Shown here: piece by piece, positions 15,472 to 16,170 of the stretch
How positions within the stretch are numbered: position 1 is the stretch's first letter
Layout of the letters: the number at the start of each line of letters is the position of its first letter
Source: Hyperthermus sp.
Lineage (GTDB): Archaea; Thermoproteota; Thermoprotei_A; Sulfolobales; Pyrodictiaceae
Assembly (NCBI GenBank): GCA_003978665.1
Contig: QNYQ01000013.1
Location: 1-33,305, forward strand
DNA length: 33,305 bases
Direction of reading: 5' to 3'
The notes under the pieces: generated by a model
What the model was told of the DNA's origin: nothing
What the model saw: only the letters and a program-made list of their open reading frames with translations
Database searches by the model: none
Position numbers and translations under genes: made by a program

Positions 15472-16005
15472 CTAGTAGCCTGATTTTATGTGTACTTTCT
15501 TCCCGAGCATCTCTGAAAGGATTCTCTCATAAACCTCCTTAGCCCTACCCATTCTCCTTTCATCTCTTTTCGTCACTCTCACAACATACTCTATGCTACC
15601 GTCAGGAAGCCACACAGTGTTAACGCCGAGCACTCTTGCCGGATAGAGTAGGTGAATAGCTAAGCCTCTTACATCGTTAGCCTTAGGTATAATCTTGACA
15701 CGCATACCTAACTTACCCTTCAATCTCTGCTCAAGGTCCCTAGCGTATCGCGTAAACACTGGCACGCTAACTCCTACACCTAAATCCATCACTAGGATCG
15801 CGAAGTTATTGTCCACAAAATACGTCTTGTAGTATGTAGCCTTGCGGAGCAGCTGCACACCTTCAGATTCCTCTAGTTCTATCAATGCCTTCATAACATC
15901 AATCTCTCTTTCATCAACAACACCACTATCAACTAAACCCTGGCATCTCGGACATAGGACGCCGCTTTTTACGCATACGTAGTCAAGAGGAATTTGTACC
16001 GAGAT
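15472..16005 (-). CDS. Zn-ribbon plus KH/NusA-like putative RNA-binding protein; start codon uncertain (no ATG/GTG/TTG for the N-terminal part)
   Basis: Track ORF is 15472..15894; the same frame upstream encodes IPLDYVCVKSGVLCPRCQGLVDSGVVDEREID, then an in-frame TGA at 16009-16011. GGAGGTGA lies immediately 5' of GCG ATC. Confidence 0.6.
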   Translation of the reverse strand: MSVQIPLDYVCVKSGVLCPRCQGLVDSGVVDEREIDVMKALIELEESEGVQLLRKATYYKTYFVDNNFAILVMDLGVGVSVPVFTRYARDLEQRLKGKLGMRVKIIPKANDVRGLAIHLLYPARVLGVNTVWLPDGSIEYVVRVTKRDERRMGRAKEVYERILSEMLGKKVHIKSGY

Positions 16006-16170
16006 CGCTCACCTCCAGCCAGCACACACCCCCAACAATATATCTACAGTGTTGATGCTGCCCAACCCCGGCAAAGCCGCAGGGAACAGGGATTACTTAA
16101 AATAACTGATGCAGGGTAATGGCCCTAGGGGGTCCGAGAGGGGCTCTAGGACAAGTTACGGTATGAGAAT

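Follow-up and report, generated by a model that had tools for sequence, protein, structure and literature searches.

The closest described systems in which a gene holds on to a non-canonical start codon are bacterial. The infC gene, encoding initiation factor IF3, has an odd start that IF3 represses, and in the sigma factor gene sigR of Streptomyces a GTC start has been shown by experiment, with GTT inferred in 2 species (PMC5472188). For Archaea, a 2021 review states that elongation and termination were the only steps where non-canonical translation had been shown (PMC8211752), and the factor aIF1 discriminates against non-canonical starts, as described from Sulfolobus and in the same review. 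We describe here an archaeal gene that, with moderate probability, is translated from a non-canonical start kept by selection, with initiation at [A/U]CG and control by the stringency of initiation.

The window, meaning the whole 33,305-nucleotide stretch of DNA under analysis, is a contig of a 970 kb draft genome that is 61% complete, so sequencing error had to be excluded first. Features of the locus are collected in Table 1. The minus-strand frame has an in-frame TGA at its upstream end and its stop at 15472, and the codons after the TGA read GCG ATC TCG GTA CAA ATT CCT CTT GAC TAC. The first ATG, GTG or TTG in the frame 15472-16008 is the internal ATG. An earlier sequence-only reading had named the same TGA as the boundary of the frame, had seen no canonical start between it and the internal ATG, and had placed a strong Shine-Dalgarno sequence (SD) just 5' of GCG-ATC, and our reading agrees with it on these points.

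Table 1. Features of the NusA2-like locus, in positions of the window
Feature	Position	Strand	Basis
Proposed full CDS, NusA2-like KH protein, 176 codons, TCG start to stop	15472..16002	-	Frame, phmmer, NCBIfam
Shine-Dalgarno GGAGGTGA	16009..16016	-	6 nt before TCG, 9 nt before GTA
Most likely start codon TCG (relatives: ACG or TCG)	16000..16002	-	Parsimony 4,0,0; WCG counts
GTA: Val second codon or rival start GUA	15997..15999	-	Changes 0,0,4
Upstream in-frame TGA, inside SD	16009..16011	-	Same offset in 10/14 Pyrodictiaceae
Internal ATG, first canonical in-frame start	15892..15894	-	Stretch before ATG under protein-level selection
Metal-site-like motif DxxC...CxxC, N-terminal	15943..15984	-	D4, C7, C14, C17 (IPLD numbering)
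NusA-like KH domain (KH_5)	15619..15813	-	Pfam PF13184 E = 7e-9, 36.1 bits vs cut-off 27

The gene, whose product is assigned to NusA2 below, is found with its conserved N-terminal stretch IPLDYVCVKSGVLCPRCQ in 172 of 197 genomes of the order, and weaker matches outside the order occur in Jordarchaeia and in Thaumarchaeota/Nitrososphaerales records. In the window, truD and pth2 lie convergent to it, and the arrangement recurs in Pyrodictiaceae and several more families, some Sulfolobales among them; because this neighborhood is shared we take the orthology to be sound. Other things seen nearby are a tRNA-His gene (G018:C1:107760-107834) that shares the strand of the NusA2 gene and precedes its start by about 100 nt, together with tRNA-Ala genes near that start in G007 and G018; the f9 orthologue, G009:C8:119506-119982, has one in-frame TAG. 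Most families have ATG, GTG or TTG two codons before the IPLD of the protein, as in ATG AAA ATT CCT. At that place, after the SD, all 14 Pyrodictiaceae orthologues (every one found among 20 genomes) have [AT]CG GT[ACT], written WCG and GTH from here on, and the same is seen in 3 related clades, namely 3 f10, 3 f6-g40 and 2 f8-g38 genomes. The consensus over Pyrodictiaceae and these clades is SD-N6-[A/T]CG-GT[A/C/T]-(C/A)A(G/A/C)-AT, and on the tree about 4 switches between canonical and non-canonical states are needed. Alignment to orthologues, the check that had been advised, finds the CxxC-containing N-terminus to be universal. Sequencing error, one of the options first listed, is excluded because the absence of a canonical start is common to 14/14 Pyrodictiaceae orthologues and the 3 other clades; the Pyrodictiaceae in the set include near-complete genomes, with G018, G028, G039 and G063 each in one contig and G007 in two, every one at 99% completeness.

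The strict motif SD-N6-WCG-GTH occurs once each in 14 of 229 genomes of the class, always at the NusA2 gene, and a reversed control over the same 229 genomes gave no match. A looser WCG-GTH pattern run over 300 genomes of the phylum matched in G018 and G069 only, the number being small because this pattern demands AAR after GTH. How rare such a start is within a genome was gauged by comparing 0.8 Mb of G007 with 1.2 Mb of G018, which gave 379 non-overlapping reciprocal best pairs. A few pairs show, in both genomes, some aligned residues ahead of the first canonical start; on inspection of that list, only the NusA2 gene among the 379 has an N-terminus of this kind that is strongly conserved and preceded by an SD. 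With a single convincing case, the non-canonical start is gene-specific and not genome-wide.

From IPLD onward, per-base parsimony over the 14 Pyrodictiaceae orthologues finds codon positions 1 and 2 nearly unchanged, while third positions of the same stretch have 2-6 changes each, about 4.5. With the first two positions fixed and the third variable, we conclude that the N-terminal stretch is translated and under protein-level selection, and therefore that initiation takes place at or above the codon preceding (C/A)A(G/A/C). This purifying selection in Pyrodictiaceae rules out a real loss of the Zn-ribbon, another of the options; the option of non-canonical initiation is supported. The CxxC N-terminus itself was rightly noticed as far as conservation goes, but it is not an isolated CxxC: there are 3 cysteines, C7 and C14xxC17, and a conserved Asp. 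Across 32 sequences, C14 and C17 are invariant and D4 and C7 nearly so, and the Asgard relative L017 has CxxC...CxxC in place of DxxC...CxxC. From its sequence, the DxxC...CxxC motif may bind metal.

As to which codon is the start, the 2 candidates of the sequence-only reading find no support. ATC at 16003-16005 is replaced by GCC, GTC, ACC, GTT or GCG in relatives and is merely 3 nt from the SD, and ATT codes for the conserved Ile of IPLD, downstream of the start in all canonical orthologues. What is left is the hexamer between them. In the 14 Pyrodictiaceae, the WCG codon (position -3) has 4,0,0 changes at its three bases, which is the signature of a start codon, and the GTH codon (position -2) has 0,0,4, the pattern of a synonymous Val codon. 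In the canonical families it is codon -2, the start, that has 0-4,0,0 changes, and codon -3 is free, with 3-9 changes per base. WCG stands at -3 in 22 of 25 non-canonical orthologues versus 0 of 88 canonical ones (Fisher p = 1.6e-20, a value inflated by kinship, 4 clades being involved). Canonical relatives are also found that start at -3 with Val next, as ATG GTG, TTG GTG (L062, L059) and GTG GTT (L268). Furthermore, the Val codon at -2 is never GTG in Pyrodictiaceae, although in 2 such genomes 33-47% of Val codons are GTG; this suggests, on about 4 changes in the family only, that a canonical GTG start is kept out at that position. The start codon is thus most likely ACG or UCG, the latter in the window, going by these substitution patterns.

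The strongest competing explanation puts the start one codon further on, at GUH (GUA in the window, GUC or GUU in relatives), in the ancestral position and with a third-base mismatch. It shares an alignment column with the ATG, GTG or TTG of most families, and this ancestral column made it our first preference. At 9 nt from the SD, it is near the spacing of canonical orthologues, although the spacing measured on 83 confident starts is broad, 5-10 nt, and so allows the 6 nt of WCG as well as the 9 nt of GTH. There is precedent in the GTC and GTT starts of Streptomyces sigR, and a third-base mismatch would also be like the AUU or AUC of infC. But a GUH start leaves unexplained why [AT]CG precedes GTH in 4 clades and in none of the 88 canonical orthologues, and why WCG has its 4,0,0 pattern, and at its third base GTH varies just as fast as synonymous sites ordinarily do. 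Because of the parsimony counts and the 0/88 count, our preference moved to WCG, and we now regard initiation at GUH as unlikely.

A set of exceptional loci bears on the same choice. Part of f8 counts against a WCG start, since L077, L082 and L134 have ATA GTA or ATA GTC in place of WCG GTH, and these are loci that a GUH start would cover uniformly. Their sister L090 has ATA GTG, and in L077 and L082 the SD contains an in-frame GTG. It is possible that the f8 loci represent a second form, with an AUA or GUH start. In L048, L055 and L131, an in-frame ATG or GTG occurs upstream of the site, by chance in L048 and L055. L131 has ATG ACG GTA and its near-identical sister L133 (f6 g40) has ATA ACG GTA, so an ATG has been gained or lost there.

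The invariant C and G of WCG and the free swapping of its first base between A and T are also what would be seen if the start were made by C-to-U editing in the mRNA, turning ACG into AUG, as is known in chloroplasts, and UCG into UUG; in the sister family f4, ATG and TTG stand at this site in the genome itself. Our literature search found no archaeal mRNA C-to-U editing, and the f8 ATA loci are not covered by it, and we hold editing to be quite improbable. Initiation at the internal ATG, with the Zn-ribbon stretch untranslated, is more improbable still. That ATG is the first canonical start of the frame and nearly all relatives have an in-frame ATG at the same place, but it has no adjacent SD, the N-terminus ahead of it is universal in orthologues, and the codon positions of that stretch have the conservation pattern described above; taken as the start, it is likely an annotation error. 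Equally hard to credit is a start supplied from an upstream exon through archaeal splicing, from frameshifting or from readthrough, for which one could cite the few genomes where the frame is open by chance and the upstream ATG or GTG of L048 and L055, but most genomes have a stop within the SD, the SD lies directly before the hexamer, the neighboring gene is divergent, and a conserved upstream exon was not apparent on inspection.

The product is, by its sequence and modeled fold, NusA2. Phmmer gives full-length matches to Protein Data Bank entries 9FJL (E = 9e-44) and 9F9U (E = 3e-41), which are the NusA2 of S. acidocaldarius and S. solfataricus. NCBIfam PRK06418 matches a query without the first residues at E = 1e-47, but its 161.8 bits are below the curated cut-off of 175; the placement rests on the solved structures. 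The AlphaFold model has a mean pLDDT of 90.9, and Foldseek with this model lists the 2 NusA2 structures first and then, as matches 3-50, eukaryotic entries of the 40S, the 80S or pre-ribosomes. Where the chain name is known, they are eS7 (e.g., 9bh5_AH, 7qix_H, 3j80_H and 6qzp_SH), scoring E = 4e-9 to 3e-7 with probability 1.00 and TM about 0.5-0.56. With a profile of the NusA2 family, archaeal NusA 2CXC is matched at E = 2.4e-6 and eS7 chains are matched at 1.5e-5, and the Pfam Ribosomal_S7e model weakly matches 16 of 32 family members, at best with E = 1.4e-5. This weak profile similarity is over the C-terminal half, and is weaker still over the N-terminal half. In 59 genomes no match to Ribosomal_S7e was above the Pfam cut-off; where any match is obtained in genomes of the order, it is in most of them the NusA2 locus, below cut-off. 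The NusA2 family is also present in Jordarchaeia (L017, L019, L020). On model and profiles the protein is eS7-like, and we do not call it eS7. A literature search joining eS7, NusA, archaea and ribosomal protein found no paper. The new subunits named in the S. solfataricus 30S study are aS33 and aS34; we considered whether either is the same protein and rejected it, as that paper describes different proteins and its main text is without NusA.

We picture the mechanism as follows. Guided by the strong SD, the 30S subunit would come to lie on the hexamer [A/U]CG-GUH, and a start at [A/U]CG, the UCG of the window, would yield M-V-Q-I-P-L-D.... The place of the ancestral ATG, GTG or TTG, one codon downstream, would have turned into a plain Val codon, with GTG barred. 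Such a start would be weak by design, and output from it is expected to vary with how stringently starts are selected, which in Archaea would be the province of aIF1. Since NusA2, with its similarity to eS7, is a KH protein related to the ribosome, the likeliest purpose would be feedback or growth-linked control of translation. By analogy with infC and sigR, the odd starts of which IF3 represses, we infer that NusA2 output may be set by initiation stringency, possibly with feedback. Working against this explanation, UCG mismatches AUG at 2 positions, and we know of no natural UCG start. ACG and UCG also swap about 4 times, which is odd if start efficiency mattered. Folding of 25 sequences around the start gave no shared RNA structure by eye, and no unusual initiator tRNA was seen in the parts of G007 and G018 surveyed, that of G018 looking normal. 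A wider statement, that in Pyrodictiaceae and relatives a selected [A/U]CG start, through mismatch or C-to-U editing, ties an eS7-like factor to stringency, is offered tentatively, its chances being somewhat short of even.

If this is true, Archaea would have their first conserved case of non-canonical initiation. The gene provides a natural, conserved example in which sister lineages of the canonical and the non-canonical type serve as built-in controls and protein structures are already solved. Gene callers will trim a conserved N-terminus in the NusA2 family. To our knowledge, eS7 is regarded as a ribosomal protein of eukaryotes only, and if the resemblance holds, it bears on an archaeal origin of eS7.

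With respect to the known systems, NusA2 of Sulfolobales (9FJL, 9F9U; PRK06418) is the same family over its full length, at 41-44% identity in the fold alignment, and differs in starting at an ATG one codon later, the window protein being below the NCBIfam cut-off. The likeness to eS7 is one of fold and, weakly, of profile, below the Pfam S7e cut-off, and the present protein differs by its extra N-terminal Cys motif; NusA2 is also not reported as a subunit of the S. solfataricus 30S. As for the start, features of the infC and sigR kind are found together here, with no canonical start, conservation across genomes, and a strong SD 6 nt from the TCG. The kind is known in bacteria, and as far as our literature search goes, a conserved archaeal case with ACG or UCG is new. 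Like infC with its AUU, the gene has a conserved odd start, a strong SD and a place in the translation apparatus, and from that likeness a response to initiation stringency is expected here; it differs in being archaeal, in having ACG or UCG and not AUH, and in that its product is not a known initiation factor, the feedback being proposed by analogy. Like sigR, it has a non-canonical start, there genus-wide, that annotation tools misplace (PMC5472188), and sigR has an extended SD, AGGAGGTG, where the NusA2 gene has GGAGGTGA; in the sigma factor gene it is the third base of the start codon that has changed, and here it is likely the second, from U to C.
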